This document shows, in pieces, positions 14,042-37,403 of a DNA stretch of 64,000 nucleotides (its first letter is position 1; the number at the start of each line of letters is the position of its first letter). A program made the translations under genes and the position numbers. The notes under the pieces were generated by a model. The model had not been told where the DNA came from, searched no databases, and worked only from the letters and a program-made list of their open reading frames with translations. The DNA is from Maricaulis maris MCS10 (GTDB taxonomy: Bacteria > Pseudomonadota > Alphaproteobacteria > Caulobacterales > Maricaulaceae), in assembly GCF_000014745.1 (NCBI RefSeq), contig NC_008347.1, positions 434,001 to 498,000 of the forward strand, read 5' to 3'.

Positions 14042-14614
14042 TTCACGTGACCCCCTGCTCGTTGTTAACCCAATCCGGCATCGTCACCTCCGCCGGGAAA
14101 ATCGCGATTAAAGTCAATTTCCGGGTGTGTAAAGCGGGAAATTTGCGGCGGCTGAATTTTTGCCCCGGCAGGGCGGTCTCCCAACCGATGGCGACCGCAA
14201 TTCCCGTCGCTTTCAGCTCATGGTCACACCCGCTGCGACAAGCATCCAAAACAAATCCGTACCCGGATTGAAGTTCAGAATTCATCTGTCCAATCAAACA
14301 TTTCGGGCAATCCCGTAATGAGTGTAAATGAAGCGTTACGTTCCGCAATGTCACAAAAAATTCAATCACCAATACTTCGTCAGTGACCGATTTGCCACCA
14401 CGGCGATTTTGCCAACTGGGACAGTATCTAGCGGGTCGCAGATGATGCCTGCACTACCGATTGTGGGCGCTGCAGGCTCGGCTCGGATGCGAGTCCGGTC
14501 AGGGGTGTCATGCCGCCGTTACAAAGCTGATGTTTACCCGCCTCCCGAGTGATCGGGGTGGAACGGGTCCCCTCCGGTCGTCAGTGAAATTCATTCCTTT
14601 TCCGGGGGACTTCA
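14042..14614. promoter_or_regulatory. Long intergenic region between divergent operons; weak PHO-box candidate
   Basis: This 573-base gap has no credible ORF and is AT-richer than its surroundings from 14090 to 14400. At 14505-14533 it carries heptamers at 11-base spacing: GTGTCAT, CCGTTAC, CTGATGT, separated by GCCG and AAAG. Against the PHO consensus CTGTCAY-N4-CTGTCAY the first matches 6/7, the second 5/7 and the third poorly. The site ends 81 bases before the lipoprotein ATG. It is a tentative PhoB site. Confidence 0.35.
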
Positions 14615-17422
14615 ATGTCGGTGAAGAACAATTTTCGAAAGCTTCTGCTTGTTTCCACGTCCTGCGCCTTCTTCGCGGCGTGCGCGGATACATCCATCTC
14701 CTCGCCTGGTAATACCAATGTCGGCACGCCTCCGGGCACCGGCGGTGGTGGCGGCGGCGGCAGCCAGACCACGATCGACCTGATCCCGGCTGGCGGCTGC
14801 GGCACCGGCTCGGTCCGCGAGACCTCGGTCACCAATGGCGACATCACGATCAATGCCTGTGAGATCACCGGCAACATCACGTCCAACACCACGATCGCCG
14901 CGAATGCCGGCGTGATCATCACCGGCCCGGTCTTCGTCGGTGTCGATGGTGGCGGTTCGGTGACCCTTGAAATCGGCGCAGGCGCAACCCTGTTCGGTTC
15001 AGCCGGTTCTGACTATCTGGTCATCTCCCGTGGCTCGCGCCTCGAAGCGGTCGGCACGTCGGACGCGCCGGTTGTCTTCACATCGCGCCAGGACATTGAA
15101 GGCACAGCCGGTCCGCTCGATCGCGGCCAGTGGGGCGGCCTGATCATCAACGGCTTCGCACCGATCAATGCCTGCATCGACGGCACCGCGACGGGCGGTA
15201 CGGCTGGTTGTGAAAAATCGGGTGAAGGTTCATCCGGCCTGTTCGGCGGCGACAATCCGGCCGATGACAGCGGCATCCTGCGCTATGTCCAGGTCCGTTA
15301 TGCGGGCTTCCTCATCAACAATGAGGACGAGCTCAACGGCATCGCCTTCCAGGGTGTCGGTTCGGGCACCGAAGTCGACTACGTCCAGGTCTCCAACAAT
15401 GCCGATGACGGCGTCGAGATGTTCGGTGGTACGGTGGATGTCAGCCACCTGGTCCTGACCAATATTCGCGATGACAGCTTCGACTACACCGATGGCTGGA
15501 TTGGCCGCGCCCAGTTCGTGCTCGTCCGCCAGTCCGGCGATGACGCCGACCAGGGCTTCGAGTTCGACAATCGCGGCTCCAACAACACGCTGTTGCCGCG
15601 CTCCAACCCGCGCATCTCCAACTTCACCCTGATCGGTGAGCGCAACGCCGCCGAGTCCGACCAGGGCATGCTGCTCCGGGCCGGTACCGCCGGTGAACTC
15701 TACAATGGCATCGTGGTCGATTTCGGCGAGGATTGCCTCGACATCGACGACCAGGAAACCTTTGACCGTATCGGCGCCAGCGGCGCTGCCGGTGACGAAG
15801 ACATCATCATGCAGTCGATCGTTCTCGATTGTACGACGAATTTCGACGAAGAAGCCGGTGACACCACCGACCTCTCGACCTGGTTCCTGGGTCAGGCCAA
15901 CAATGCCGAGATCAACAACTCGATGTCCGGTGTCTTCCCGGGCCCGATCGAGCAAGCGGTCACGGCCTTCGACATCAATGCGTTGGACAACTGGTTCACC
16001 GATGTCGACTATATCGGTGCCTTCTCCGGTTCCGAAACGGACGCTTCCAACTGGGCAGCCGGCTGGACCTACAACCTGTTCGCCGATCCGGGTTGCCCGA
16101 CGGGCACCACCGAATCCGTTGAGGTCATCAATGGTCAGCGCATCTGCCAGATCACTGGCAACTTGACCTCCGACCTGCGCCTGACGCGCGGCTCCATGTA
16201 TGAGCTCGTCGGTCCGGTCTTCGTCGGTGTTGACCGCGGCCCCGATCCGGCCAGCCCGCTGCCGTCCGGTATCGAAGCCGAACTCACAATCGATCCCGGT
16301 GTCACCATTTTCGGCTCGGCCGGCTCTGACTACATCGTCATCACACGTGGCTCGAGCATTCGCTCGAACGGTACCGCAACCGCTCCAGTCACCATGACCT
16401 CGCGCTCGGATGTCGAAGGTACGGTCGGCGCCAATGACCGCGGTCAGTGGGGCGGCCTGATCATCAATGGTCGCGCACCGATCAATGCCTGTATCGATGG
16501 TACGGCAACGGGCGGTACAACCGATTGTGAGAAGTCGGGTGAAGGCTCTTCCGGTCTCTTCGGTGGCGCCACGCCAACCGATGACTCGGGCAATATCTTC
16601 TACACCCGTCTCCTGTACGCCGGCTTCCTGATCAACAACGAAGACGAGCTCAACGGCATCGCCTTCCAGGCTGTCGGTTCGGGCACCGAAGTCGACTACG
16701 TCCAGGTCCACAACAATGCCGATGACGGCGTCGAAATGTTCGGCGGCGCGGTTGATGTGAGCCATCTGGTCCTCACCGGTATTCGCGATGACAGCTTCGA
16801 CTACACCGATGGCTGGGTTGGTCGCGCTCAGTTCGTGATCGTGTCCCAGTCCGGCGACGACGCCGACCAGGGCTTCGAATTCGACAATCGCGGTTCCAAC
16901 AACACCCTGCTGCCGCGCTCCAACCCGCGCATCTCCAACTTCACCCTGATCGGTGAACGCGGTGCAGCTGAATCGGACCAGGGCATGCTGCTCCGGGCCG
17001 GTACGGCGGGCGAGCTCTACAACGGCATCGTGGTCGATTTCGGCGAGGATTGCCTCGACATCGACGACCAGGAAACCTTCGACCGTATCGGCGCCACCGG
17101 CGCCGCTGGTGACGAAGACATCATCATGCAGTCGATCGTTCTCGACTGTACGACGAACTTCGACGAGAGCGCCGGTGACACCACCGATCTCTCGACCTGG
17201 TTCCTGGGTCAGGCCAACAATGCCGAGATCACCCACACGATGACGGGCTTCGCCTTCATCCCGGGCAATACCGGTGTCGTGCCGGGCGCGACCGAACAAG
17301 CGGTCACCGCCTTCGACATCAATGCTCTCGACAGCTGGTTCGTCGATGTCGACTACATCGGCGCCGTCGAAGACGCCAACGACACCTGGTACCAGGGTTG
17401 GACCTTCCGTCGCACGCAGTAA
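14615..17422 (+). CDS. Secreted/surface lipoprotein with two tandem near-identical domains (ElpS-like candidate)
   Basis: A 935-residue lipoprotein. A signal peptide ends in the lipobox FFAAC (Cys23). Ala follows Cys, which argues for outer-membrane sorting. A Gly-rich linker (residues 40-50) leads to two copies of a roughly 425-residue domain (about 60-480 and 492-935) of beta-helix-like repeats. Both share IIINGxAPINACIDGTATGG, NNEDELNGIAFQ, NNADDGVEMFGG, FDNRGSNNTLLPRSNPRISN and DFGEDCLDIDDQETFDRIG. Its setting, beside a TonB receptor and a 12-gene T2SS, resembles Caulobacter elpS, a phosphate-starvation lipoprotein whose release needs the adjacent T2SS. Homology to ElpS is inferred from context, not alignment. 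Confidence 0.8.
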   Translation: MSVKNNFRKLLLVSTSCAFFAACADTSISSPGNTNVGTPPGTGGGGGGGSQTTIDLIPAGGCGTGSVRETSVTNGDITINACEITGNITSNTTIAANAGVIITGPVFVGVDGGGSVTLEIGAGATLFGSAGSDYLVISRGSRLEAVGTSDAPVVFTSRQDIEGTAGPLDRGQWGGLIINGFAPINACIDGTATGGTAGCEKSGEGSSGLFGGDNPADDSGILRYVQVRYAGFLINNEDELNGIAFQGVGSGTEVDYVQVSNNADDGVEMFGGTVDVSHLVLTNIRDDSFDYTDGWIGRAQFVLVRQSGDDADQGFEFDNRGSNNTLLPRSNPRISNFTLIGERNAAESDQGMLLRAGTAGELYNGIVVDFGEDCLDIDDQETFDRIGASGAAGDEDIIMQSIVLDCTTNFDEEAGDTTDLSTWFLGQANNAEINNSMSGVFPGPIEQAVTAFDINALDNWFTDVDYIGAFSGSETDASNWAAGWTYNLFADPGCPTGTTESVEVINGQRICQITGNLTSDLRLTRGSMYELVGPVFVGVDRGPDPASPLPSGIEAELTIDPGVTIFGSAGSDYIVITRGSSIRSNGTATAPVTMTSRSDVEGTVGANDRGQWGGLIINGRAPINACIDGTATGGTTDCEKSGEGSSGLFGGATPTDDSGNIFYTRLLYAGFLINNEDELNGIAFQAVGSGTEVDYVQVHNNADDGVEMFGGAVDVSHLVLTGIRDDSFDYTDGWVGRAQFVIVSQSGDDADQGFEFDNRGSNNTLLPRSNPRISNFTLIGERGAAESDQGMLLRAGTAGELYNGIVVDFGEDCLDIDDQETFDRIGATGAAGDEDIIMQSIVLDCTTNFDESAGDTTDLSTWFLGQANNAEITHTMTGFAFIPGNTGVVPGATEQAVTAFDINALDSWFVDVDYIGAVEDANDTWYQGWTFRRTQ
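14768..17419 (+). repeat. Long in-frame tandem duplication inside the lipoprotein gene
   Basis: Two segments, about 14768-16076 and 16087-17419, encode the same domain with long runs of identical protein and largely identical DNA; for example the stretches near 15540-15640 and 16850-16950 differ at only a few bases. Identity is highest in the second half of each unit, and the first 100 residues have diverged more. Confidence 0.85.
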
Positions 17423-17436
17423 CGCAATTGCCTGAA

Positions 17437-17460
17437 CCGGCCGGCCTTCGGGCCGGCCGG
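17437..17460 (+). terminator. Perfect 10-bp hairpin between lipoprotein and TonB receptor genes (attenuator-like)
   Basis: CCGGCCGGCC-TTCG-GGCCGGCCGG is a very stable stem with a UUCG tetraloop, starting 14 bases after the lipoprotein stop. No T-run follows, so it is more likely a partial terminator or 3' mRNA stabiliser that sets a higher lipoprotein than receptor level. Confidence 0.55.
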
Positions 17461-17486
17461 GGATGGCGTCTGTCAATCGCAGTCAC

Positions 17487-20165
17487 ATGGTGATGAAGAT
17501 GAAAACCACACGATTTGCGCTCTCGGCTGCGTTGCTGGCGTCCACGACGCTCGTGCCGGTCGCAGCCCTTGCCCAGGACGCCGATGAAGATGTCATCGAA
17601 GTCCGCTTTCAATACATTCCCGACGATCGCCGGGTGACGTCGGAAGTCGCCGCGTCGCTGTCGATCGACGATCTGGCAACAACCGGCGACAGCGATCTCG
17701 CTTCCGCCCTGGTCCGCGTTACCGGCCTGTCCACGGTTGGTGGCCGGTTCGTGGTCGTTCGCGGCCTCAACGAGCGTTACTCCAACACGCTGCTCAACGG
17801 CTCTCCGATGCCGTCGCCGGAACCCTTCCGTCGCGCAGCCCCGCTCGACATCCTGCCGACCAACGTGCTCTCCAACGTGCTCGTCCAGAAAACCTTCTCG
17901 CCGGAATTCCCGGGTGAGTTCGGTGGCGGCGTGATCGGCATCGAAACCGCATCCCTGCCGGACGATCGCTTCTTCAGCGTCTCGATCGGCGCCAGCGGCG
18001 ATACGGTCACGACCGGTAATCACGGCCTCACCTATGGCGGTTCCGATACCGACTGGATGGGCTATGACGACGGTCTGCGCGACATGCCGGACGAACTCGC
18101 GGCGGTGTTCGACACCACCCGCGTCGGCAATAACCTGCCAGCCGCCCAGCAGCAGGCCATCGGCCGCTCGCTGGTCAATTCCGAACTCTGGGTCGTCCAG
18201 CAGATTGACACCGACGCCAACGGCTCGATTTCCATCGAAGCCGGTGAACGTTTTGACTTCGACAACTTCTCGCTTGGTCTTTTGGTCGCCGGCTCGTTCT
18301 CGAACGAGTGGGAGACCCGCGAAGGTCAGCGCGGCAAGGGCGCCATCGGCGCCGGCGACGAGCTGATCTACGAAAACGGACCGCCCAGTGAAGACCGCTC
18401 GGGTCTGGCCCCGGTCGGCGAAGGCATCAACAACTTCTTCGGCACAGAGAACGAGATCAACGCCTCCGGCCTTATCTCGGTCGGCGTTGACTTCTACAAC
18501 GACCACTCGATCAGCTTCCTGTCGATGGCCCTGCGCTCCACCTCGAAAGAGGCCCGGATCGAAGAGCAGTTCAATGCCGGTTCTTCGGCAGTTGTTCGGG
18601 GTGACTACACCGAGTGGTTCGAGCGTCAGGTCCTGTTCAACCAGCTTCGCGGTGAACACCTGTTTGAAAGCCTCGGCGGACTGGCTCTCGACTGGCGCCT
18701 GTCTGATGCCACCGCGACCCGCGACGCGCCTTACCAGCGCTTCGTGAACTACCAGTACGAAGATGTCCCGCAGACCTATCGCTATGAAGGCGACATCAAC
18801 GACAACTTCACGCGCTTCTCGGAAATCGAAGACAGCACGCAGGACGGTGGTTTTGACCTCACCCTGCCGGTGTCCCTCGGTGACTTTGATGCCGAACTCA
18901 AGGCCGGTTACTCCAACACCAGCCGCGAGCGTGATGCCTATACCCGTCAGTTCGCCTTCGAACAGGGTTCCGACGGTATTCCGGCTGACCTCCTGTTCTC
19001 GCGCATTGATTACATCTTTGCCGAGCAGAACATCGTCGACGAGCGCCTGCGTCTCGTTGAGACGGGTGGCCTGACCTTCCCGGAAGCCTATAACGGCCGC
19101 CTTTTCGTCGAAGGTTATTATGCCGGTGTCGATGTCGGTCTGACCGACTTCGTCCGCGCGGCTGTCGGTGTCCGTTTTGAGCAGGGCACACAGAAGGTCG
19201 ACACATTTGCCTTCCCGGCAAACACTGCCGACAGTGGCCAGGTCGAGACCCGGATCGAAGAGGACTATGTCCTGCCGGCCCTGACCCTGACCTGGACCTT
19301 CGCTGACAACCTTCAGCTTCGTACCGGTTACTCCCAGTCGATCGCCCGCCCGCAATTCCGCGAGCTGGCTTTCGCCGAGTTCTTCAACACCGATACGGAC
19401 CAGCGCTTCCAGGGCAACCCGTTCCTCGTGAACACCGAGATCGAGAGCTATGACGCGCGCCTGGAGTATTACTTCGGCCGTGACCAGTTCGTGACCGTCG
19501 GTGCCTTCTACAAGGTCCTGGAAAACCCGATCGAGGAATACATCATCCCGATCGGTGATGGCCTGAACACCTCCTTCATCAACGCGCCGGAAGCGACGTT
19601 GACGGGTGCGGAGTTCGAGTTTGAGAAGTCCTTCGACTTCTCGGATCGCTGGGACGGTGCTTTCTTCAATGACCGTGAGTGGTTCATTAAGACGAACTAC
19701 ACCTACATCCAGTCTGAAGTGACTGCTGACGGCACGGTCACGATCGCCCAGGGTGCCTTTGGCAGCCCGTCGGCGATCGAGCTGAATGCCGCCGGCTTCG
19801 TGCAGGACGGTCGCGCCCTTCAAGGCCAGTCGGAGCACCTGTTCAACCTGCAGGTCGGTTTCGAAACCTTTGACGGTCGTGCCCGCGGTGCCCTGCTGTA
19901 CAACTTCACCGGTGAACGGTCCCGTGCCGTGGCCAACCTGTCGGACAATCTCCCCGAGATTTCCGAGCAGCTGCCGGCCTCGCTCGACTTCGTCTACTCC
20001 CGCACGCTCGAACTGGGCGGGAATGACTGGGACTTCGGTTTCTCCGTCCGCAATATCCTGGGCGAAGACTATGAAGCCACCCAGTCCGCCGGCGGCGTTG
20101 AACTGCCGGTCGACACCTATGATATCGGGACCTCGCTGAGCCTTTCGGTCAGCCGGACCTGGTAG
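17487..20165 (+). CDS. TonB-dependent receptor paired with the duplicated lipoprotein
   Basis: About 892 residues. The signal peptide (MKMKTTRFALSAALL, cleavage near AALAQ) is followed by a plug with LASALVRVTGLSTVGGRFVVVRGLNERYSNTLLNG and FSPEFPGEFGGGVIGIET, then a long barrel ending SLSVSRTW with the terminal aromatic residue of outer-membrane barrels. Four in-frame ATGs (17463, 17487, 17493, 17499) are possible. 17463 abuts the preceding hairpin, so 17487 or 17493 is favoured, but no start has a good ribosome site. Lipoproteins of this kind commonly sit beside such receptors, and the pair probably forms a surface capture-and-import complex. The ligand is unknown; context suggests phosphate-bearing compounds. 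Confidence 0.92.
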   Translation: MVMKMKTTRFALSAALLASTTLVPVAALAQDADEDVIEVRFQYIPDDRRVTSEVAASLSIDDLATTGDSDLASALVRVTGLSTVGGRFVVVRGLNERYSNTLLNGSPMPSPEPFRRAAPLDILPTNVLSNVLVQKTFSPEFPGEFGGGVIGIETASLPDDRFFSVSIGASGDTVTTGNHGLTYGGSDTDWMGYDDGLRDMPDELAAVFDTTRVGNNLPAAQQQAIGRSLVNSELWVVQQIDTDANGSISIEAGERFDFDNFSLGLLVAGSFSNEWETREGQRGKGAIGAGDELIYENGPPSEDRSGLAPVGEGINNFFGTENEINASGLISVGVDFYNDHSISFLSMALRSTSKEARIEEQFNAGSSAVVRGDYTEWFERQVLFNQLRGEHLFESLGGLALDWRLSDATATRDAPYQRFVNYQYEDVPQTYRYEGDINDNFTRFSEIEDSTQDGGFDLTLPVSLGDFDAELKAGYSNTSRERDAYTRQFAFEQGSDGIPADLLFSRIDYIFAEQNIVDERLRLVETGGLTFPEAYNGRLFVEGYYAGVDVGLTDFVRAAVGVRFEQGTQKVDTFAFPANTADSGQVETRIEEDYVLPALTLTWTFADNLQLRTGYSQSIARPQFRELAFAEFFNTDTDQRFQGNPFLVNTEIESYDARLEYYFGRDQFVTVGAFYKVLENPIEEYIIPIGDGLNTSFINAPEATLTGAEFEFEKSFDFSDRWDGAFFNDREWFIKTNYTYIQSEVTADGTVTIAQGAFGSPSAIELNAAGFVQDGRALQGQSEHLFNLQVGFETFDGRARGALLYNFTGERSRAVANLSDNLPEISEQLPASLDFVYSRTLELGGNDWDFGFSVRNILGEDYEATQSAGGVELPVDTYDIGTSLSLSVSRTW

Positions 20166-20224: not shown

Positions 20225-20268
20225 GCGAAACGTCGTAAAACTAACGGCGAAACGTCGTAAAACTGACG
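20225..20268 (+). promoter_or_regulatory. Two 22-bp tandem direct repeats upstream of gspC (operator candidate)
   Basis: GCGAAACGTCGTAAAACTAACG (20225-20246) is followed at once by the same 22 bases with one change, A to G at 20265 (20247-20268). Each copy contains ACGTCGT-AAAA-CTRACGK, heptamers at 11-base period with the same AAAA spacer as the PHO boxes at 31887 and 34878, though the heptamers match CTGTCAY at only 4-5 of 7. The array ends 91 bases before gspC and is likely the operator of the T2SS promoter. Confidence 0.5.
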
Positions 20269-20359
20269 TACAGCGCGTGTATCCGAAACCGATCCCCGAC
20301 GGATCAGCCACCTTTGGTGCGTTCGACGTCACGGGGCGTGCAGACGGGCGCTGGATGCG

Positions 20360-21238
20360 ATGACGCAAACAACAACTACCACACAGGCACAGGGCGGTCG
20401 CAACCGCATGCCGGCGTTGGTGGGCCTCATGATCCGCGCCGCTGAACTGGTCCTGCTCGTTGCCCTCACATTTGTCCTCGCGCGGATGATCTGGCTGGTC
20501 GCCTTTGGTGCCAGTGCCGGCGATTTCCGGCAGGACAGTGTCGACACCGCCACCGTCGCCGGATCCGGCATCGCCTACGACGCCGATCTCAACCGGCTCA
20601 CCCAGACCACGCTGTTTTCCGCCCCTCGTGCTGCCGCCGCCGCCGATGCCGCGCCGGCGCTGGCTCCTGAAACCCGGCTCGCACTGGTCCTGCGCGGCGT
20701 GCGACGCGGCGCGACGGATGACACTGGCGGCGCCATTATCCAGACGCCGGACAACCGACAGCGCTTTTTCCGGGTCGGCTCGGAAATCCTTGACGGCGTT
20801 ACGCTCGACAGGGTGCTGGTCGATCATGTCCGCATCAGCCGCCGCGGCATTGCCGAAGTCCTTTATCTGCGTCCTGAAGCCGCCGCCGCCGCGCGCGAGG
20901 CCGGGGGCGAGCCATCCGCCGCGTCCGGTCGGGCGACGACGCCGACCGGCGCCCCCCGCCGCGGTCAGCTCGAAGACGTCGCCGGCCTGTTCCAGGTTCG
21001 CGCCCGCTATGCCGGCGACACCCTGACCGGCTATCGCATCGAGAGCGGCAATGCCGCCATGCTGTCGGTGCTGGGGCTGCGCGAAACCGACGTGATTACC
21101 GCCATTGAAGGCCGGCCGGTCGCCACGATCGGCGACCTCCAGGCCCTGCTCGACCGCGATGGCGGGAGCAATTCCATCCGTTTCTCCATTTCACGGGGCG
21201 GTCTGCCCCTGACCATTTCGAGGACTTTGCCGCAATGA
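20360..21238 (+). CDS. gspC: Type II secretion protein GspC
   Basis: A 292-residue inner-membrane clamp protein of the T2SS that links the platform to the secretin. One N-terminal helix (about 26-48) is followed by the homology region with YDADLNRLTQTTLFS and LVLRGVRRG (about 72-125), an Ala/Pro-rich linker, and a C-terminal PDZ domain (about 205-285, with GLRETDVITAIEGRPV). It is the first gene of a twelve-gene run in the order C-N. Its stop overlaps the gspD start as ATGA. Confidence 0.9.
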   Translation: MTQTTTTTQAQGGRNRMPALVGLMIRAAELVLLVALTFVLARMIWLVAFGASAGDFRQDSVDTATVAGSGIAYDADLNRLTQTTLFSAPRAAAAADAAPALAPETRLALVLRGVRRGATDDTGGAIIQTPDNRQRFFRVGSEILDGVTLDRVLVDHVRISRRGIAEVLYLRPEAAAAAREAGGEPSAASGRATTPTGAPRRGQLEDVAGLFQVRARYAGDTLTGYRIESGNAAMLSVLGLRETDVITAIEGRPVATIGDLQALLDRDGGSNSIRFSISRGGLPLTISRTLPQ

Positions 21239-23187
21239 CCCAGTTTGCGAAAAACGCCCTGGCCGCCCTGTGTGTGCTGTCTGTCCTCGTGCTGGCGCCG
21301 ATGGCCCGCGCCCAGGACCAGGTGGTCAATTTCAACCAGGCCGAGATCCAGGCGGTCATCGATGATGTCTCGGCGGTGACCGGATACACTTTCATCGTTG
21401 ATCCGAATGTACGCGGTCGGGTGACCATCACCTCGCAGGCGCCGCTGACCTCGGACCAGTATTTCCAGGTCTTCCTGTCGACCATGCGGGTGCATGGCTA
21501 CACCGTGGTGCCGACCGCGTCGGGGGCCTACCAGATCGTCCCGGACCAGGCCGGCGCCCGCTCCGCCAATCCGGTCAATTCCAACCTGCGTGGCGACCAG
21601 TATGTGACCGCCGTCGTGCGTCTGAACCATGTCGCCTCGCGCGATGCGCTCGCCGTGGTGCGGCCCCTGATCGGTGCCCAGGGCAGCGTCAATGCGACCG
21701 AGACCGGCAATGTGCTGGTGATGGTCGACTATGCCGAGAACATCGCCCGCCTGCGCCAGGTCATCCGCGATCTCGACCGTGACACCTCGGTGGTGGAAAT
21801 GGTCGAGCTGACCAATGTCTCGGCCGGCGACATGACACGCATCCTGCAACAGATGCGGACCAGTTCGACGGCGGGCGAGGACGAGACCATTTTCAACGTT
21901 GCCATCGCGCCGATCCCGGCTTCCAACACCGTCCTGCTGCGCGGCAATCGTGACGCCGTTGACCGCATGATTGCCCTGGTGCGCCGGGTCGACAGTGTCA
22001 GCCAGTCGAACCGGAGCTTCCGCGTCATCTATCTCAGCCATGCCGATGGCGAGCATTTGCTGCCGATCCTGCAGCAGGTGGTCGACACCCTGGTGGCAGG
22101 TGAGGGAACGACGCGCGCCCCGTCAGTCTCGCACCATGCCCCCACCAATGCGCTGGTCATCAATGCCGATCCGGACGTGCAGCGCCAGCTCGAACTGGTG
22201 ATCCGCCAGCTCGACATCCGCCGGCCGCAAGTGCTGGTCGAGGGCATCATTGTCGAGATGTCCGACAGCACGGCCCGCGAACTCGGCGTGCAGATGCTGC
22301 TGGCCGGTGGTGAGGGCGACACGCCTTTGGCAATGACCCGCTTCTCCTCCAACAATCCCGACCTGCTGGCCCTGACCGGAGCCGCGACCTCGCCCGGCGA
22401 TGATGACAGCGATCTCAATGTGTCGCTGCGCGATGCGGCGATCAATTCGCTGCTTGGTGCCTCGGGTGGCACGCTGGGCTTTGGCGGCCAGAACGGCAGC
22501 GGCAACCTGTTCGGCCTGGTCCTCAACGCGGTCGAAAGTGACGTCAATTCCAACGTTCTGGCCACGCCCTCCATCATGGCGCTGGACAATGAGGAAGCCT
22601 ATTTCCTGTCCGGTCAGGAAATCCCGGTGACCACCGGCGAGGCGCTTGGCTCGAACAACACCAACCCGTTCCGGACGGTTGACCGCGAAGAGGTCGGTGT
22701 GAAGCTGACCGTCCTGCCGCAGATCACCGAGGGCAATACGGTGCGTCTGCACATCGTGCAGGAAGTCTCCTCGGTGGCGGGTGCGGTCAATGCCGGCTCG
22801 TCCGACCTGATCACCAACAAGCGTGAAATCTCGACGACGGTGCTGGCCGATAATGGCGAGATCATCGTGCTGGGTGGCCTGATCCAGCAGGAAGACGAGA
22901 TCAGCGAGGACGGCGTGCCGGGCCTGCGTCGCCTGCCCGGCGTCGGTCGCCTGTTCCGCTCGGAGGGCTCCACCACCCGCCGCACCAATCTGATGGTCTT
23001 CATCCGTCCGACCATCATCCGCTCAGAGGCCGACATGCAGGCCCTGACCGACAATCGTTATGACTTCATCCGCAATGAGCAGATCGCCGGCAGCCCGAAC
23101 GGGACCAGCTCGCTGGAATCGATTGTCGAGATGATGCTGGTCGAGATGGATGCGCCTGTCGCCACAGCGGAGACGCCGGGTGACTGA
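21235..23187 (+). CDS. gspD: Type II secretion outer-membrane secretin GspD
   Basis: A 650-residue secretin with a signal peptide (cleavage near ARAQD, residue 23). The N0 domain (VVNFNQAEIQAVIDDVSAVTG) precedes three N-domain repeats (about 125-365). The C-terminal secretin core has VNSNVLATPSIMALDNEEA, ISTTVLADNGEIIVLGGLI and VPGLRRLPGVGRLFRS, the standard secretin signatures. It forms the gated outer-membrane channel of the T2SS. Overlaps gspC by 4 bases and gspE by 8. Confidence 0.96.
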   Translation: MTQFAKNALAALCVLSVLVLAPMARAQDQVVNFNQAEIQAVIDDVSAVTGYTFIVDPNVRGRVTITSQAPLTSDQYFQVFLSTMRVHGYTVVPTASGAYQIVPDQAGARSANPVNSNLRGDQYVTAVVRLNHVASRDALAVVRPLIGAQGSVNATETGNVLVMVDYAENIARLRQVIRDLDRDTSVVEMVELTNVSAGDMTRILQQMRTSSTAGEDETIFNVAIAPIPASNTVLLRGNRDAVDRMIALVRRVDSVSQSNRSFRVIYLSHADGEHLLPILQQVVDTLVAGEGTTRAPSVSHHAPTNALVINADPDVQRQLELVIRQLDIRRPQVLVEGIIVEMSDSTARELGVQMLLAGGEGDTPLAMTRFSSNNPDLLALTGAATSPGDDDSDLNVSLRDAAINSLLGASGGTLGFGGQNGSGNLFGLVLNAVESDVNSNVLATPSIMALDNEEAYFLSGQEIPVTTGEALGSNNTNPFRTVDREEVGVKLTVLPQITEGNTVRLHIVQEVSSVAGAVNAGSSDLITNKREISTTVLADNGEIIVLGGLIQQEDEISEDGVPGLRRLPGVGRLFRSEGSTTRRTNLMVFIRPTIIRSEADMQALTDNRYDFIRNEQIAGSPNGTSSLESIVEMMLVEMDAPVATAETPGD

Positions 23188-25925: not shown

Positions 25926-25935
25926 GGAGGCGTCG

Positions 25936-28949: not shown

Positions 28950-30166
28950 GCCAGGACCTGATCCTGAAGCCGATGCGTGAGGGCGCGATCGCCTGGTCGG
29001 TCGTCGACCGGCGTGGCGCGACCCGCCTCCACGAAGGACGGCTGGCCAGCGGAGAAAGCTTTCCCGTCGGTGTCGCCGATGCGGTCGATCGCACGCTCAT
29101 CCTGCTGCCAGGTGAGCATCTCCATGTGACCCGGCTGGCCATTCCGGCAAAATCCGAGCACCAGGCCCGGCAGGCGGCGCCCTTCCTGCTCGAGGACGAG
29201 CTCGCCTCGCGCCTGTCCGGGACCACCATACTGCCCGGCCCGCGCGCCGATGATGGCAGCCGCTGGGTGGTGGCGGTTGAAACTGGCTTGCTGGATGAGT
29301 GGCGCGAGGCGCTGGCCCCGTTGATCGTCCGTCCGGCCTTCATCGTTCCGGACAGCCTGGTGGCCGCCGAACCCGGCGCCGCGCTGACGCTGTATGACCG
29401 TGGTGACGCAATCCTGTTTGCCCATGATCCCGATGCCGAGGAGCCGGCCCGGCCGCTCGCCGGCGTGATGGACACGGCGCTGTTCGGGTCGGTGGTGCAG
29501 GCCCTGGTCAAGGCGGCCGGAAGCGGCGAGATCGCCGTGTCGCGCTCGCTGGGGCTGACCGGTGCCAATTTCCGCGCCATCGGGCAGGGCGGGATCGACC
29601 TGCGCGCCAGCGCTCTCGATGCCGAACGGCTGGCGGCCCTGCCGCGCCTGTTCGGCGACAGTTTTGCCTCGACCATGGACTGGTCGTCTCTGGTGCGGCC
29701 GCTGCGCCGCCCGCTCCTGCTGGCGGCCGGTCTATTGCTGGCCTTCTGCCTGCTGATCGGCGGCGAGACGATCTATTACCGCCTGCAGGCCGAGCGCTTT
29801 GAAACAGCGACCCTGGCCGAGTTCGATCATGCCATGCCGGACTTTGGCCGTGCGGTCATTCCGGCCGAGGCCGAGCGCCTGCTGCGGGCCCGTGTCGAGC
29901 GTCTGTCCGGTGACGGTCAGTCGGCCTTCCTGCAGCTGATCACGGCGCTAGACGAGCTGGTCGACGGCAATGACAGCGTCCGCATCGACCATGTCCGTTA
30001 CGACCCGGCCCGCGCGGCCCTGTCGGTCGGTGCGACCTATTCGGACTTCTCCGATTTTGACGACCTCAATGCCCGCGCCGACCAGCTGGGTCTGCGTCTG
30101 GACGATGGCGGTGCCCGTGAGAGCACGGCCGGGATTGAGGGCGAGTTTGTGATGAGGCTGCCATGA
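28946..30166 (+). CDS. gspL: Type II secretion protein GspL
   Basis: 406 residues. The N-terminal cytoplasmic actin-like domain (about 1-245, with LILLPGEHLHVTRLAIP and QAAPFLLEDELA) binds GspE. A transmembrane helix follows (about 255-277, LLLAAGLLLAFCLLIGG), then a periplasmic ferredoxin-like domain. ATG 28946 overlaps the gspK stop by four bases and gives the canonical N-terminus; a longer frame from 28892 is gspK overlap. Confidence 0.92.
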   Translation: MSQDLILKPMREGAIAWSVVDRRGATRLHEGRLASGESFPVGVADAVDRTLILLPGEHLHVTRLAIPAKSEHQARQAAPFLLEDELASRLSGTTILPGPRADDGSRWVVAVETGLLDEWREALAPLIVRPAFIVPDSLVAAEPGAALTLYDRGDAILFAHDPDAEEPARPLAGVMDTALFGSVVQALVKAAGSGEIAVSRSLGLTGANFRAIGQGGIDLRASALDAERLAALPRLFGDSFASTMDWSSLVRPLRRPLLLAAGLLLAFCLLIGGETIYYRLQAERFETATLAEFDHAMPDFGRAVIPAEAERLLRARVERLSGDGQSAFLQLITALDELVDGNDSVRIDHVRYDPARAALSVGATYSDFSDFDDLNARADQLGLRLDDGGARESTAGIEGEFVMRLP

Positions 30167-30660
30167 TGACGCGTTTTGCCCCGGTGCTGGCCTGGTGGGA
30201 CGGCCTGTCCAGCCGTGAACAGGTGATGATGGCGGTGCTGGGCGCGCTGGCCATGATCCTGCTGGTCAGCCTGCTCATCATCCAGCCGCTTCTGGGCGCC
30301 CATGACCGGGCCCGTGACAGCTATGCCGCGTCGATGCGTCTCTACCGCGCGGTCGAGGCCGATGCCGATACCGTGCAGGCACTGGCCGCTGCGGCTCCGG
30401 CCAGCACGGCGCCGGCGCAGTCGCTGCGGGCGGTGGCCGGCTCGATGGCCCTGCGTCACGATATCGCCCTGGCCCGCATGGTGCCCGGTGAGGATGGTCG
30501 GCTGACCGTCAATATTGATCGCGCCGAGACCGCAGCCATTCTGGCCTGGCTGGTTGATCTGGACCGGCGCTACGGTATCCGCGCCCAGGCCTCGACGCTT
30601 GACCGCGACGCTGACGGCTTTGTCTCGGCCTCCTTCGTCCTCAGCCGCGGGGGTGCCTGA
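30163..30660 (+). CDS. gspM: Type II secretion protein GspM
   Basis: A 165-residue bitopic protein. A short cytoplasmic N-terminus with WWDGLSSREQVMMAVLG leads into one transmembrane helix (about 24-45) and a ferredoxin-like periplasmic domain. GspM pairs with GspL in the platform. Overlaps gspL by four bases and gspN by one. Confidence 0.88.
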   Translation: MMTRFAPVLAWWDGLSSREQVMMAVLGALAMILLVSLLIIQPLLGAHDRARDSYAASMRLYRAVEADADTVQALAAAAPASTAPAQSLRAVAGSMALRHDIALARMVPGEDGRLTVNIDRAETAAILAWLVDLDRRYGIRAQASTLDRDADGFVSASFVLSRGGA

Positions 30661-31412
30661 TGTTTGCCCGTCTCCTGCTTGTTGCCGGCCTGCTGTTGGT
30701 CTGGCTGATTGCCCTGATGCCGCTCAAGCTGGTGGCGCTGGCGGCTGGCGGTTCGCCGGCATTGGGTTATCGCGATGTGTTCGGCACGATCTGGGACGGT
30801 CGGGTCTACGGGCTCGAACTCAATGGTGTTCCGGTCAGCGAGCTGGACGTGTCGCTCGATCCGCTGGCCCTGGTGCGCGGCCGGATCGGCGGCGAATGGC
30901 GCGTCAGCGACACCAGCCTGCGCGGCACGGGCGAGGCCCGGCTGTCGGGGTCCGGCCTGCAACTGGACGCGACCCAGCTGGTCGCCACGCTGGACCGTCT
31001 CGGCCTCGACACCATTCCCGGCCTCGATCCGCGCGAGCGGGTCTTTGTGCGGCTTGACCGGCTGGACTACCGCGACGGCCTCTGTCGTCAGGCCTCAGGA
31101 TCGGCCCGCACCTCTGCCCTGGTCGGACTGGCACGCCTGTACGGGCAGGACGGTCCGGAACTGACCGGGGATATCAGCTGCGAGGATGGCCGCGTCGTGC
31201 TCGATTGGGCCGGTGCGGCCGAGGGGGTTGTCCTTGAGGGACGGGTCAGCTTCCGCGCCGACGGCTATGACTGGCAGGCAAGCATCGAGACCGCCTGGCC
31301 GGAATTCGCCGAGGCGCTGGCACTTGCCGGCATGCAACGGGACGGCAGCGTCTGGACCGCGACCGGCACGGTCAACCTCGATGCGGGTGCCGGCGGTCAG
31401 AATCCGGGATAA
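30660..31412 (+). CDS. gspN: Type II secretion protein GspN
   Basis: A 250-residue protein with one N-terminal helix (about 3-25) and a periplasmic beta-rich domain. The motifs GYRDVFGTIWDGRV near residue 40 and SCEDGRVVLDWAG fit GspN, an accessory T2SS part found in some systems. It ends the C-N run and overlaps the convergent prepilin peptidase gene by 16 bases. Confidence 0.85.
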   Translation: MFARLLLVAGLLLVWLIALMPLKLVALAAGGSPALGYRDVFGTIWDGRVYGLELNGVPVSELDVSLDPLALVRGRIGGEWRVSDTSLRGTGEARLSGSGLQLDATQLVATLDRLGLDTIPGLDPRERVFVRLDRLDYRDGLCRQASGSARTSALVGLARLYGQDGPELTGDISCEDGRVVLDWAGAAEGVVLEGRVSFRADGYDWQASIETAWPEFAEALALAGMQRDGSVWTATGTVNLDAGAGGQNPG

Positions 31413-31879
31413 AGCCCCGGCCCGTAGGCGCGGTGCAGCCAGCCGGCGAAAAAGCCCAATGCCAGCCAGGGCCCGAACGGCCAGGGCTGGCTGCCATCGG
31501 GCAGGCGACGTCGCAGCAGTGCCAGGAGCGCGATGAAGACGAGCGCGCCCAGCGTGCCGATCAGCACGATCAGCGGCAGCAGCCAGCCGCCGCACCAGGC
31601 ACCCGCGGCCCCCATCAGCTTGGCATCGCCGCGCCCCAGCCCGTCGCGGCCGCGCAAATGCCGGTAGCCGATCTCGATGGCGACAAAGCTGCCATAGCCC
31701 AATGCGGCACCGATCAGCGATGTCCAGGGCGTGCCGAGCCAGAGCGTGTTCAGGACGACACCGGCGACGATCAGCGGCAGGGTGCCGATGTCGGGCAGGC
31801 GGAAGCTGCGCGCATCAGTCCAGGCAAGCCAGGCAAGGCTGACGACGAGGATGACTGTGGCGAGGTGAATGTGAATCAT
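31397..31879 (-). CDS. Type IV prepilin peptidase, minimal form (GspO-like)
   Basis: A 160-residue A24-family aspartic protease with about six membrane helices. The two catalytic Asp lie in WTDARSFRLPD (about residue 21) and GRGDAKLMGAAGAW (about 80). It lacks the N-terminal Cys-rich methyltransferase domain of full-length PilD/GspO, like CpaA-type peptidases. Lying tail-to-tail with gspN, it likely processes GspG-K. ATG 31879 starts MIHIHLATV; the longer upstream frame crosses the PHO box and phnC. A second A24 peptidase (CpaA) is at 62062. Confidence 0.9.
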   Translation of the reverse strand: MIHIHLATVILVVSLAWLAWTDARSFRLPDIGTLPLIVAGVVLNTLWLGTPWTSLIGAALGYGSFVAIEIGYRHLRGRDGLGRGDAKLMGAAGAWCGGWLLPLIVLIGTLGALVFIALLALLRRRLPDGSQPWPFGPWLALGFFAGWLHRAYGPGLYPGF

Positions 31880-31886
31880 TCCCGTC

Positions 31887-31904
31887 CTGTCACAAAAGTG
31901 TAAT
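31887..31904 (+). promoter_or_regulatory. PHO box upstream of phnC
   Basis: CTGTCAC-AAAA-GTGTAAT: two heptamers at 11-base period, matching the PhoB consensus CTGTCAY-N4-CTGTCAY at 7/7 and 5/7. It lies 42 bases before phnC. It is only seven bases from the divergent peptidase start, too close to serve that gene in the same way. Confidence 0.75.
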
Positions 31905-31946
31905 ACGCATGGGCCACAAGGTCTGGACTCAATAAGGGACGACACC

Positions 31947-32741
31947 ATGACAGACGCCGCGCTGGCGCTCCAAGCCGAAAATCTCCGGATGACATTCGGC
32001 GAAACCAAGGCGCTCGACGATGTCAGCCTAAGCGTCAAGCCGGGTGAGATGGTCGCGCTGATCGGTCCGTCCGGATCGGGCAAATCGACCCTGTTGCGTG
32101 TCGCTGCGGCCCTGCAGGTTGCGGACGCGGAAAGCGGTCCCGTCTCGGTTCTCGGCAAGACCATGCAGCAACGCGGCAAATTGTCGGGTAGGGTGCAACG
32201 CAACCGGATCCAGCTGGGCTTCATTTTCCAGCAGTTCAACCTGGTCGGTCGCCTGTCCCTGTTTCAGAACGTGCTTGTCGGCGCGCTCGGACGCTTGCCG
32301 ACCTGGCGCGGCGTGCTGGGCATCTTCCCCGATGACGTCAAACAGTCCGCCATGGACGCGTTGACCCGCGTTGGCGTCGAAAGTTTCGCCGCCCGCCGGG
32401 CCTCCAACCTGTCCGGTGGCCAGCAGCAGCGCGGCGCGATCGCCCGCGCGCTTGTCCAGGGCGCGCAAGTCCTGTTCGCCGATGAACCGATCGCCTCGCT
32501 CGACCCGGTCTCGGCCCGCAAGGTCATGGAGACCCTGCGCGAGTTGAACAAGGATGATGGTCTGACGGTTGTCGTGACGCTGCATCAGGTCGACTACGCC
32601 AAGCGTTTCTGCGACCGCATCGTTGCCCTGAACAAGGGGCGGGTCGTTTATGACGGGCCGGCGGACGGACTGTCGCGCGACAAGTTGATTGAAATCTACG
32701 GCCCCGAATTCGAGACGGCCTTCGAAGGCGGAGACGCGTGA
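31947..32741 (+). CDS. phnC: Phosphonate/phosphate-type ABC transporter ATPase PhnC
   Basis: A 264-residue ABC ATPase: Walker A GPSGSGKST near residue 38, Q-loop FIFQQFNLVGRLSLFQNV, signature LSGGQQQR near 154, Walker B VLFADEPIASLDP near 176, and H-loop LHQVDYAKRFCDRI. The FNLVGRLSLFQNVLVGALG stretch is a hallmark of the PhnC branch, which energises uptake of phosphonates, phosphite or phosphate. Preceded by a PHO box and overlapping the PhnDE fusion gene by four bases. Confidence 0.93.
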   Translation: MTDAALALQAENLRMTFGETKALDDVSLSVKPGEMVALIGPSGSGKSTLLRVAAALQVADAESGPVSVLGKTMQQRGKLSGRVQRNRIQLGFIFQQFNLVGRLSLFQNVLVGALGRLPTWRGVLGIFPDDVKQSAMDALTRVGVESFAARRASNLSGGQQQRGAIARALVQGAQVLFADEPIASLDPVSARKVMETLRELNKDDGLTVVVTLHQVDYAKRFCDRIVALNKGRVVYDGPADGLSRDKLIEIYGPEFETAFEGGDA

Positions 32742-34800: not shown

Positions 34801-34836
34801 AAAGCCCGGGACGTTGGCGTCCCGGGCTTTTTTTTT
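34801..34836 (+). terminator. Strong terminator after phnC-phnDE
   Basis: Perfect 13-bp stem AAAGCCCGGGACG / CGTCCCGGGCTTT with loop TTGG, followed by further Ts to 34836. It isolates the transporter operon from the porin gene. Confidence 0.95.
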
Positions 34837-34859
34837 GCCGACCCGCAACTGCAACAAAG

Positions 34860-34888
34860 GTGTCATCGAGGTGTAGTAAAACTGTCAC
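34860..34888 (+). promoter_or_regulatory. Triple-repeat PHO box upstream of the porin-pstS unit
   Basis: GTGTCAT-CGAG-GTGTAGT-AAAA-CTGTCAC: three heptamers at exact 11-base period, with 6/7, 4/7 and 7/7 matches to CTGTCAY. PhoB binds such direct repeats head to tail. The last repeat ends 132 bases before the porin start. Confidence 0.8.
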
Positions 34889-35020: not shown

Positions 35021-36220
35021 GTGACCCAACGTTTTCTTGCGAGCACCCTCTTGGCTGCCAGCACTGCCCTCATCGCCACCACAACAGCTTCCGCCCAGGA
35101 CACGGGCGGCTGGGAATTTGACGGCGTGCCGTCCTGGTCGGATCCAGTCAACGGCAACAGCTTCACCTTCCGGGGCCGTGTCTATCTCGATTATGGCGAT
35201 ATCGAATTCGAGACCGGCGGCCTGAGCACCAGCTATGCCGACAGCGAAATTCGCACCGCGCGCCTGGGAGTGACCGGTTCGGTCAGTGGCATCGACTATG
35301 TCGCCGAATTTGACTGGATCAATGAGGCGATCGCTGCCAACGACGTCTATCTGACCTTCGATCTGGATGGTTTCGACCTCAAGCTCGGCCACATGAAGAC
35401 CCCCAATTCACTCGATGAGCAGACCTCCTCGCGTTATATCACCTACATGGAGCGCGGTCTGGGCACGGACCTGTTCGGCCTTGACCGGCGTGTTGGTGCG
35501 ACGCTGGTCCGTTCGGGCAGCAATTACAGCCTCAGCGCCGGTGTATTTGGCGGCCGACCGGGCGATCTCTCGGACAGCCTTGAGCTGGATGACAGTTCGG
35601 CCATTGCAGCCCGTGCAACACGGACCTTCACCCATGGCGAGGCCACCGTGCATCTGGGTGCCTCGGTGCGTCATCTTGATTATGGCAATGTCGGCACGCG
35701 TGTTCGTGTCCGCCCGCAAACGCACATCACGGATCGCGTCGTCACCGCCGATTTCCGCCCCGGCCGTCCGCTGGGCGAAGCCGAGACCTCCTTCTTCTGG
35801 GGACTGGAAGCCGCGGTCATCAATGGCCCATTCCACGCCGAAGCCGAGTGGATGGACATGTCGCTGGACGGCCCGGCTGGCGATCCCGACTTCAACACGC
35901 AATACGCCAGCATGGGCTGGTTTCTTACCGGGGAAAGCCGTTCCTATTCGGCCGGCTCCGGCAAGTTCGGCCGCACGCGTCCCGGCACCACCGTTTCCGA
36001 AGGCGGACCCGGTGCCTGGGAAATCGCGGTGCGCTATGACCGTGCCGACCTCGACAGTGTCGCAGCGGGCGAACTCACCAATTGGACCCTTGGCGTGAAC
36101 TGGTATCTGGAAGACCATGTTCGCATCATGGCCAACCTCGTCGACGGCAGCCTTTCAGTCCCGGGCGCAGCCGACACCGACGTGTCGGGCGCACAGCTTC
36201 GACTGCAATGGGATTTCTGA
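35021..36220 (+). CDS. Phosphate-selective porin, OprP/OprO-like
   Basis: 399 residues starting at GTG, with AGGA eight bases upstream. The signal peptide ends near TASAQ (residue 25), followed by a 16-strand-type porin. Family cues include SFTFRGRVYLDYG, RTARLGVTGSVSGIDYVAEFDW, DLKLGHMKTPNSLDEQTSSRY and the end WYLEDHVRIMANLVDGSL, with an extreme C-terminal Phe. OprP-type porins pass phosphate or polyphosphate across the outer membrane and are Pho-regulated. The triple PHO box upstream and pstS 57 bases downstream support this role. Confidence 0.9.
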   Translation: MTQRFLASTLLAASTALIATTTASAQDTGGWEFDGVPSWSDPVNGNSFTFRGRVYLDYGDIEFETGGLSTSYADSEIRTARLGVTGSVSGIDYVAEFDWINEAIAANDVYLTFDLDGFDLKLGHMKTPNSLDEQTSSRYITYMERGLGTDLFGLDRRVGATLVRSGSNYSLSAGVFGGRPGDLSDSLELDDSSAIAARATRTFTHGEATVHLGASVRHLDYGNVGTRVRVRPQTHITDRVVTADFRPGRPLGEAETSFFWGLEAAVINGPFHAEAEWMDMSLDGPAGDPDFNTQYASMGWFLTGESRSYSAGSGKFGRTRPGTTVSEGGPGAWEIAVRYDRADLDSVAAGELTNWTLGVNWYLEDHVRIMANLVDGSLSVPGAADTDVSGAQLRLQWDF

Positions 36221-36277: not shown

Positions 36278-37333
36278 ATGAAACTCCAGGCTCAACTCGC
36301 CGCCGCCCTCGCGGTCGTGGCGATCGCTGGCGGCGCCGAGGCGCAACAGCGTGACCAGATCCGCATTGTCGGCTCCTCGACCGTATTCCCCTTCTCGACG
36401 GCGGTTGCCGAAAGCTTTGGTGCCAAGACCGGCCAGCCGACCCCGGTGGTCGAGTCAACCGGTTCGGGCGGCGGGCTTCGCCTGTTCTGCTCCGGTGTCG
36501 GCACCGAGCACCCCGATATTGTCAACGCCTCGCGCCGCATGCGCGGTTCGGAATATGAGCGCTGCCAGGACAATGGCGTGCGCGAGATCACCGAAGTGCG
36601 GATCGGTTTTGACGGCATTGTCATCGGTGCCGCCGATCGTGGTGCTGCCGATGTCGACATGACGCTCGACCAGGTTTGGCTGGCCCTCGCCGCCGAAGTT
36701 CCGGCCGATGACAGCTGCTCCAGCTTCATCCCCAATCCGAACACACGCTGGTCGGATATCGATCCGTCCCTGCCGCGTCAGCGCATTGAGGTTTTCGGAC
36801 CGCCGCCGACCTCGGGCACCCGGGACGCCTTTGTCGAACTGGCCCTGCAGGACGGCGCCCGCCACATCGCCTGCATGGACGAGCTGCGTGACGCGGACCG
36901 CGACCGTTTCGAGCAGATCGCCAGCCGTATCCGTGAAGATGGCGCCTGGATCGACGCCGGCGAGAATGACAATGCTATCGTCCAGACGCTGGTCAACACG
37001 CCGACCGCCTTTGGCGTCTTCGGCTTCTCCTTCCTCGACCAGAATTCCGACCGCATCTCGGCGGTCTCGATCGACGGTGTCGCACCGGAATTCGATAATA
37101 TCGCAGACGGCAGCTATCCGGTCTCCCGCTCGCTCTTCTTCTACGTGAAGAACCAGCATGCGGCGATCATTCCGGGTCTGACCGGCTATGTCGAAGAGTT
37201 CACCTCCGAGGAATCCTGGGGCGAATTCGGCTATCTCACCGATCGCGGCCTGATCCCGCTGCCGGACGCCGAGCGCAACGCCACCCGCGACGCCGCCGTC
37301 AACCTGACCGCGATGACGCAGTCGCCGGAATAG
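36278..37333 (+). CDS. pstS: Periplasmic phosphate-binding protein PstS
   Basis: A 351-residue exported binding protein (signal cleaved near GAEAQ, residue 22). The phosphate-site sequences are visible: RIVGSSTVFPF near residue 31, ESTGSGGGLRLFC, NASRRM, and PPTSGTRDAFVELAL near 183. An internal Cys-rich segment (DSCSSFIPNPNTRW) is a family variation. It lies 57 bases after the porin, probably in the same PHO-box-driven transcript. No pstC, pstA or pstB follows in the window, so it must work with a distant permease. Confidence 0.95.
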   Translation: MKLQAQLAAALAVVAIAGGAEAQQRDQIRIVGSSTVFPFSTAVAESFGAKTGQPTPVVESTGSGGGLRLFCSGVGTEHPDIVNASRRMRGSEYERCQDNGVREITEVRIGFDGIVIGAADRGAADVDMTLDQVWLALAAEVPADDSCSSFIPNPNTRWSDIDPSLPRQRIEVFGPPPTSGTRDAFVELALQDGARHIACMDELRDADRDRFEQIASRIREDGAWIDAGENDNAIVQTLVNTPTAFGVFGFSFLDQNSDRISAVSIDGVAPEFDNIADGSYPVSRSLFFYVKNQHAAIIPGLTGYVEEFTSEESWGEFGYLTDRGLIPLPDAERNATRDAAVNLTAMTQSPE

Positions 37334-37372
37334 GCCTCGCCTGCAGCCACAGGCAAGCGGGTCACAAACAAG

Positions 37373-37403
37373 CGGGGGCGACCAGATGGTCGCCCCCGTT
37401 TTT
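37373..37403 (+). terminator. Terminator after pstS
   Basis: Perfect 11-bp stem CGGGGGCGACC / GGTCGCCCCCG, loop AGAT, then TTTTTG. It sits between convergent pstS and the glycosyltransferase gene and may serve both. Confidence 0.9.

Follow-up and report, generated by a model that had tools for sequence, protein, structure and literature searches.

The 64,000-base stretch of Maricaulis maris MCS10 analysed here (the window; positions 434001-498000 of a single 3,368,780-base contig, NC_008347.1) holds an island of phosphate-related genes. We assigned its gene families with Pfam and NCBIfam models at the positions given in a preliminary description of the same DNA (Table 1). As that description held, the genes for an ElpS-like lipoprotein, its TonB-dependent receptor (tbdr), a complete GspC-N type II secretion system (T2SS) core with a prepilin peptidase, PhnC, a PhnDE fusion, an OprP-like porin and a PstS-like protein are contiguous. 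The start given there, 14505, is a PHO-like repeat, and the end given, 37403, closes a terminator-like hairpin that was read by eye. We propose, with a probability of roughly 70%, that the region is a neighbourhood of at least four probably PhoB-controlled units (elpS-tbdr, gspC-N, phnC-phnDE and oprP-pstS) created by the juxtaposition of two older modules, with the division of labour outlined below. The alternatives weighed in the following paragraphs are not exclusive, and the confidences we attach to them overlap with each other and with that of the proposal.

Table 1. Features of the island and its left flank, in window coordinates.
Feature	Position	Strand	Basis
Polyamine anchor: 1,9-bis(guanidino)-5-aza-nonane synthase (deoxyhypusine-synthase family) and ornithine/arginine decarboxylase-like gene; not Pho	11731..14041	-	PF01916, PF02784; NF002699 above cut-off
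PHO-like element 1 before elpS (ATGTCACAAAAAATTCAA)	14348..14365	+	Score 8.32
PHO-like element 2 before elpS, three half sites spaced by 11 bp	14505..14533	+	Score 7.76
elpS-like lipoprotein gene, 935 amino acids (aa), two predicted tandem right-handed beta-helix domains	14615..17422	+	BLASTP of halves, AlphaFold2 (AF2) model
TonB-dependent receptor (tbdr), 40 bp 3′ of elpS	17463..20165	+	PF00593, PF07715
Degenerate PHO box before gspC, four half sites, 11-bp period	20230..20269	+	Score 8.08
gspC, D, E, F, G, H, I, J, K, L, M, N: complete T2SS core	20360..31412	+	Pfam, above cut-off for 12/12
gspO-like prepilin peptidase of 160 aa with an A24 domain alone, likely coding sequence	31397..31879	-	A24 domain, tblastn conservation
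Strong PHO box between gspO and phnC	31887..31904	+	Score 10.96, best site of 64 kb
phnC ATPase	31947..32741	+	TIGR02315, 282.1 bits (cut-off 266.1)
phnDE fusion (binding protein and permease), 680 aa	32738..34780	+	PF12974 and PF00528 in one stop-free frame
Terminator-like hairpin 3′ of phnDE	34802..34836	+	By-eye reading of sequence
Strong PHO box before oprP, four half sites, 11-bp period	34849..34888	+	34871, score 9.76 (second best); 34849, score 9.16
OprP/OprO-family porin	35021..36220	+	PF07396, 190.5 bits (cut-off 20.9)
PstS-like phosphate-binding protein	36278..37333	+	PF12849 (PBP_like_2) above cut-off

The PHO consensus consists of two CTGTCAT half sites with an 11-bp period, and the whole window was scanned with it. 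Scores were judged against two controls: same-length windows away from the island (or, for other loci, from the locus itself), with overlap of the true site excluded, and resampled sequence, which denotes first-order Markov resampling and not exact dinucleotide shuffling. The direct-repeat boxes that had been described before phnC and the porin are the top two sites of the scan, with p values of 0.0003 for both against windows (the floor of that test) and of 0.001 (floor) and 0.003, respectively, against resampled sequence. One site scored at least 10.5 where 0.05 were expected in resampled windows; four sites reached 9 or more, with 3.4 expected, and among them the second oprP site (34849) shares third rank with one that lies within elpS (16144). 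Total site counts are not enriched, and it is position that matters. Searched across the genome, TGTCAYNNNNNTGTMAY, which was built with the phnC site in view, matches the phnC box only, and alignments show this box kept across Maricaulis, weakest in genome G088; the oprP box is conserved in congeners G049, G063 and G083. As a positive control, the genome's pst operon carries TTGTCACAAAACTGTAGCTAAGCTGTCAT upstream, with scores of 9.28 and 9.88. The PhoX gene has no site of 8.5 or more upstream, and one of 9.28 lies beyond the gene. Segments before the receptor (40-bp gap), pstS (57-bp gap) and the downstream glycosyltransferase gene scored negative, and since neither the receptor nor pstS has a box of its own, elpS-tbdr and oprP-pstS look like operons. 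Over 14000-33000, a generic scan for promoters and terminators gave no useful signal, with 2 promoters where 3.1 were expected and 7 terminators where 9.8 were. CcrM-type GANTC sites are far rarer in the window than expected (72, with an expectation of 320), yet four of them (14491, 31873, 31926 and 34890) fall within about 25 bp of three PHO elements.

The preliminary description had also pointed to weaker candidates before the lipoprotein and gspC, and these are present with marginal scores (8.32 and 8.08). Before elpS, the core of element 1, GTCRCAAAAAnTTCAA, occurs in all five aligned Maricaulis sequences, and element 2 is kept in four of the five, the window included, with an altered form, CCGTCACGGCACCGTCAC, in G083. 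Comparison across loci strengthens the case. ElpS loci were gathered from relatives and from a genome scan (best 80 of 551), and 84 of 87 with a usable start entered the box test, three duplicates being dropped. Against windows of the same locus, the box before elpS reached p<0.05 in 65 of the 84 and p<0.01 in 45; against resampled sequence the counts were 59 and 39. The corresponding figures for 104 elpS-tbdr intergenic segments, used as controls, were 5 and 1 (own-locus windows) and 8 and 1 (resampled). The signal was specific for the spacer: a 4-nt spacer, giving the 11-bp period, yielded 62/84, compared with 6-23/84 at nine other spacers, and among gammaproteobacterial loci 10 of 12 had a box at the 4-nt spacer, against 0-4 at the others. 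Scoring the minus strand gave 16/84; a reversed consensus gave 36/84, but it retains the 11-bp repeat and is no clean control. An 11-bp-repeat PHO box before elpS in many related loci appears to be new. Among the papers listed in our literature searches (15 of 58 for Maricaulis and phosphate, for example), which covered few subscription journals, none gave an account of PHO boxes before elpS outside Caulobacter or of this gene order in Maricaulis.

Gene order was compared across 100 genomes of the order, with genes counted as linked when within 26 kb of each other. For phn, a match had to reach about E 1e-55, which retained 40 of 49 genomes; for gspN, G012 was removed because its match fell short of the cut-off, leaving 60 of 61; secondary elpS and pstS fragments were left out. 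Among genomes holding both members of a pair, elpS and gspN are linked in 45 of 57, the polyamine synthase and phn in 24 of 37, phn and pstS in 22 of 37, and oprP and pstS in 23 of 34. This separate conservation indicates that two modules, each conserved in its own right, have come to lie side by side in the island. Module A would comprise the ElpS lipoprotein and its TonB receptor, often accompanied by a T2SS; module B would be an uptake block, phnCDE-oprP-pstS, anchored by the polyamine synthase. The complete chain is found in 4 of the 100 genomes (G000, G049, G063 and G009, the last from a different genus), and in most genomes holding both modules these lie apart, even within the genus. In G083, a congener, the polyamine genes run into gspO-phnC-phnDE-oprP-pstS and elpS-tbdr-gspC-N lies on another contig, both modules being more than 20 kb from contig ends; the modules are apart in G044, G058 and G078 as well. 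In G033 and G087, which belong to another family, elpS-T2SS lies near the polyamine gene. The joined state may be either ancestral or the product of several independent events.

These gene orders bear directly on the view taken in the preliminary description, weighed here in the form of a single release, capture and import programme selected for contiguity, in which the T2SS frees ElpS and enzymes, the receptor takes organic phosphate, and the porin, Phn and Pst import it. In its favor are the contiguity in four genomes of two genera and the near-complete arrangement in G088, where elpS-T2SS-phn are joined without oprP and pstS alongside. Looser associations occur in other families: a weak pstS match lies about 1.2 kb beyond gspN in G087, and an oprP match lies 155 bp from gspN in G010. 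In the Kordiimonas locus L119, pstS-pstC-pstA-pstB-phoU ends 1.6 kb before an A24 peptidase gene and elpS-tbdr-T2SS (L130 resembles it, judging by tblastn and a list of open reading frames only), and in a Caulobacteraceae metagenome-assembled genome (L084) phnC-phnD-phnE stand beside elpS-tbdr. On the other side are the separated modules of G083, G044, G058 and G078, the lack of a recognised hydrolase gene in the island, and the finding in PMC2996285 that surface display of Caulobacter ElpS is independent of the T2SS. We consider such a programme unlikely. As a physical unit it is not supported, the two modules lying apart in most genomes with both, and, as far as gene order can tell, their contiguity is not required.

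Several observations weigh against the reading we favor, that all four units answer to PhoB within a phosphate neighbourhood. Taken alone, the elpS box in the window is marginal (p 0.022 against windows, 0.18 against resampled sequence), and the far part of the intergenic gap between the decarboxylase-like gene and elpS, 14042-14300, scores much like it (8.08; p 0.036 and 0.10). The gspC box is likewise marginal (p 0.041 and 0.020), and 30 of 42 T2SS upstream segments across loci were not significant. The elpS loci are related, and the box counts are therefore not independent. Outside Maricaulis and G009, elpS is rarely near other phosphorus genes: of all genomes with both genes, it is linked to phn in 5/29, to oprP in 5/22 and to pstS in 6/66, and most of these are the Maricaulis genomes and G009 themselves. 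Finally, PMC2996285 reports that the Caulobacter receptor CC0171 is constitutive (data not shown there) and that GspL protein is similar in rich and poor media.

These points leave room for a narrower account, which restricts PhoB control to phnC-phnDE, oprP-pstS and also elpS and sees the T2SS and receptor as essentially constitutive genes that merely lie nearby. The weak gspC box, the receptor without its own box and the Caulobacter CC0171 and GspL data all fit it; moreover, the pre-gspC box reached p<0.05 in two of six congener loci (L026, from G083, and L136) and missed it in the other four (L021, L022, L025 and L031). Yet across loci 12 of 42 T2SS upstream segments were significant at p<0.05 and 8 at p<0.01 against own-locus windows (14 and 8 against resampled sequence), the repeat before gspC has four half sites with an 11-bp period, whose 3′ half (20252-20269) is shared with G049, G063 and L136, and G083 carries a clearer four-half-site version, GTGTTGCGAAACTGTCATGCGGGTGTCGCAGAACTGTCGG. 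The receptor gene lies 40 bp behind elpS, and a 2024 RNA-sequencing study of Caulobacter lists the T2SS in the PhoB regulon (PMC11208175); transcripts of gspE and gspL rose 1.7-fold in poor medium in PMC2996285. We regard the narrower account as doubtful. From the 11-bp direct repeats and their conservation, strong at phnC and oprP and weak within the window at elpS and gspC, we infer that PhoB binding and induction are likely for phnC-phnDE and oprP-pstS, and by comparison for elpS. To this extent the proposed PhoB-controlled programme is supported.

In the PhnDE fusion, which is unbroken in all four congeners possessing phnDE, PhnE exceeds its TIGR01097 cut-off and PhnD falls just under that of TIGR03431 (252.6 against 261.1). 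Because phnC and PhnE lie above NCBIfam equivalog cut-offs, the strong PHO boxes could be thought to serve a phosphonate-eating pathway, the island being a carbon-phosphorus (C-P) lyase-type phosphonate system. We consider this highly improbable. A search of the genome found no PhnJ, the C-P lyase (2-aminoethylphosphonate [2-AEP] and other phosphonate routes were not searched). Within the order PhnJ occurs in 8 of 100 genomes, and in seven of these a different PhnD/E paralogue, less similar to the window's PhnDE, shares its contig at a distance of no more than about 13 kb. Seven of the PhnJ genomes also hold window-type Phn, and in none of them does it lie within 26 kb of PhnJ. The absence of PhnJ from this genome, and its separation from window-type Phn in the order, thus indicate that the transporter is not coupled to C-P lyase, and the capture of organic phosphate is unsupported as it was written. 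Inorganic phosphate (Pi), phosphite, an ester and 2-AEP are open candidates for its substrate.

The porin carries the PF07396 barrel of the OprP/OprO family. The PstS-like protein scores 134 bits against the curated model TIGR02136 (cut-off 206.6), and its gene is the sole place in the genome that matches this protein. PstC-, PstA- and PstB-like genes are encoded outside the island, about 93 kb away, in an operon with the order phoR-like kinase, pstC, pstA, pstB, phoU, phoB. Among the island genes no secreted hydrolase or phosphatase was recognised, and the genome's one PhoX match is elsewhere (PhoX was searched; PhoA and PhoD were not). With these results, and with the predicted beta-helix fold of ElpS, the release of enzymes by the programme is unsupported as it was written.

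ElpS itself matched no Pfam or NCBIfam model, and a profile of its family matched no PDB sequence. The protein has a lipobox, FAAC at residues 20-23, with F at -3 where the consensus given in PMC2996285, L-(A,S)-(G,A)-C, has L; the G083 congener carries LAAC in its N-terminus. Relatives in the same gene context in Caulobacteraceae (L060, L066 and L067) match the window protein. The two halves of the window protein are 73% identical to each other by BLASTP. AlphaFold predicts a confident right-handed beta-helix (predicted local distance difference test score, pLDDT, 88.7 for the whole protein with AF2; for the second half alone, 94.6). In these models ElpS is a tandem beta-helix protein without a close solved relative. 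Against PDB structures the single-domain model had no match at E<=0.001 (best template-modelling [TM] score 0.37), its remote matches being beta-helix alginate epimerases, lyases, pectate lyases, adhesins and tailspikes; the two-domain model had ten at E<=0.001, of which nine are PL6 alginate lyases and one is antigen 43, with TM-scores of 0.12-0.19 on the query. TM-scores to known beta-helices are thus low, which weighs against the reading we favor. A phosphatase fold was considered and is unsupported, the structural matches being of the kinds just named. Conserved acidic residues about one coil apart (E188, D213-D214-E217, D235-D236-D239 and E265, A3 numbering) may line up along one face as a ladder that could bind a metal or a ligand. 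In 64 of 80 ElpS proteins (80 of 87 rows used, after removal of three duplicates and four doubtful starts) the lipid cysteine is followed, some 5-10 residues on, by an SPG motif, and 11 gammaproteobacterial proteins have CGGDIN-like starts in its place. As a T2SS signature SPG does not discriminate (36/41 loci with T2SS, 28/39 without).

The two halves have not evolved independently. A tree of 86 halves and six single-domain proteins requires at least 22 changes of N/C label on well-supported branches: the tandem halves have been made alike, or duplicated anew, on many occasions, a form of concerted evolution. Maricaulis N halves form one clade, placing most of this homogenisation or re-duplication at or before the stem of the genus. 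Within the window protein, alignment columns 180-420 are 82-96% identical between its own halves, compared with 51-91% (G063) and 72-86% (G083) to the same half of congeners, and in columns 360-420 all 20 of 20 four-fold sites agree between halves; in columns 0-180 the reverse holds, its own halves being less alike than the same half of G063 or G083. Identity between halves over columns 180-420 is 86-94% in G063 and G049 and falls toward the end of this region in G083 (76% and 70%) and G088 (68%). The pattern looks like partial gene conversion.

Among the best 80 of 551 loci, a TonB receptor gene directly follows elpS in 79, and at the remaining one a contig edge falls within elpS. At least three of gspC-G were detected by tblastn in at least 30 of the 80; this is a minimum, since some loci are truncated and the queries were the window's own proteins. 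From these counts we conclude that the receptor is the constant partner and the T2SS optional. SusC/SusD-type pairs likewise encode a surface lipoprotein next to a TonB receptor; ElpS, however, is a predicted beta-helix and not a SusD fold, and no Pfam SusD match was found in it. Another point of comparison is the phosphate-controlled Hxc T2SS/phosphatase system of Pseudomonas aeruginosa, which has different genes and neighbours; we know of no ElpS there.

The closest known system is that of Caulobacter crescentus. In PMC2996285, elpS (CC0170), CC0171 and gspC-N have the same order as here, with a reversed gspO downstream, a similar order is noted in Xanthomonas, Sphingomonas and Hyphomonas, and ElpS is induced by phosphate starvation; PMC5172544 describes an elpS promoter induced by phosphate starvation, with MucR and CcrM effects. 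T2SS, TonB receptors and Pst are all under PhoB in the regulon of PMC11208175, the difference being that this is the transcriptome of another genus, in whose consulted passages the present gene order is not mentioned. Since order and phosphate control were published for Caulobacter, the core idea is already known. What differs here is the lipoprotein, a tandem double domain of 935 aa where CC0170 is about 50 kDa (PMC2996285) and six Caulobacteraceae loci with a called start (L060, L066, L067, L070, L071 and L086) encode single domains of 486-554 aa, and the continuation of the T2SS into phnC-phnDE-oprP-pstS. The double-domain ElpS, the joined modules, the conservation of the elpS box and the concerted evolution of the halves would be the new elements. 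The Caulobacter work also qualifies the release of ElpS by the T2SS: in PMC2996285, the T2SS does not translocate ElpS and is needed for its release, probably via a secreted protease, and release probably follows cleavage before Asn38.

Some features of the T2SS and of the flanks deserve brief mention. The frame called gspF (24483) overlaps gspE, and the real start is probably later. The 160-aa peptidase lacks a recognisable methylase domain; a 280-aa version from a long TTG frame was rejected, part of it being antisense to phnC and tblastn conservation in five matching Maricaulis relatives starting only at residue 105 or later, and a 176-aa version had no NCBIfam match. Matches to 'gspO' on top of phnC in G058, G014, G004 and G009 are the same antisense artefact. 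The G083 T2SS is more diverged from the window (gspN 33%, gspL 35%, against 46-47% and 44-50% in other congeners), without such divergence in its elpS and receptor (76-78%; L026-L027). A second T2SS-like locus near 3.05-3.06 Mb of the same genome (L144, L001) encodes a secretin of 686 aa, which begins with a lipobox-like stretch, together with relatives of gspE (44%), gspF (31%) and gspG (40%); about 300 bases beyond the right end of the window, a third secretin domain lies in a 575-aa frame (L003), which we take to be a Tad/Cpa pilus secretin. Convergent with pstS is a family 4 glycosyltransferase (GT4) gene (37427-38611), which adjoins the island in all five congeners examined and in G009 and is near the phn-oprP genes in G014. 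A recently acquired foreign island is unsupported: GC content is 0.638 in the window against 0.630 and 0.636 in the left and right flanks, third-position GC is 0.71-0.89 gene by gene against 0.77-0.84 in the neighbours, and no tRNA gene was found.

We envisage that low Pi would activate PhoR-PhoB, and that PhoB would then occupy the 11-bp repeats. OprP and PstS would hand Pi to the distant PstCAB, and a further phosphorus anion, unconnected with C-P lyase, would enter through PhnC-PhnDE. ElpS would reside on the cell surface as the partner of the TonB receptor, and the T2SS would export hydrolases and, following the Caulobacter precedent, a protease activity that sheds ElpS. As a more general and tentative proposal, ElpS and its receptor may form a two-part unit of the outer membrane that is under PhoB control and widespread in Alpha- and Gammaproteobacteria. 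The lipoprotein, a beta-helix in single or tandem form from an unclassified family, would bind or process some polymer or ligand that contains phosphorus and so serve the receptor. The T2SS would be an optional addition controlling shedding, and the halves would be kept alike within lineages by repeated gene conversion because both must bind the same partner.

It is in this wider claim about ElpS and its receptor that the best value of the finding lies. An observation made in one species, ElpS in Caulobacter, becomes a testable general claim about a Pfam-less, predicted beta-helix family and its receptor, with PHO boxes in most loci examined, and the contrast between G083 and other Maricaulis offers a natural experiment on whether contiguity matters. 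If the claim is true, the pair would represent an unrecognised phosphorus-acquisition unit common in aquatic bacteria.

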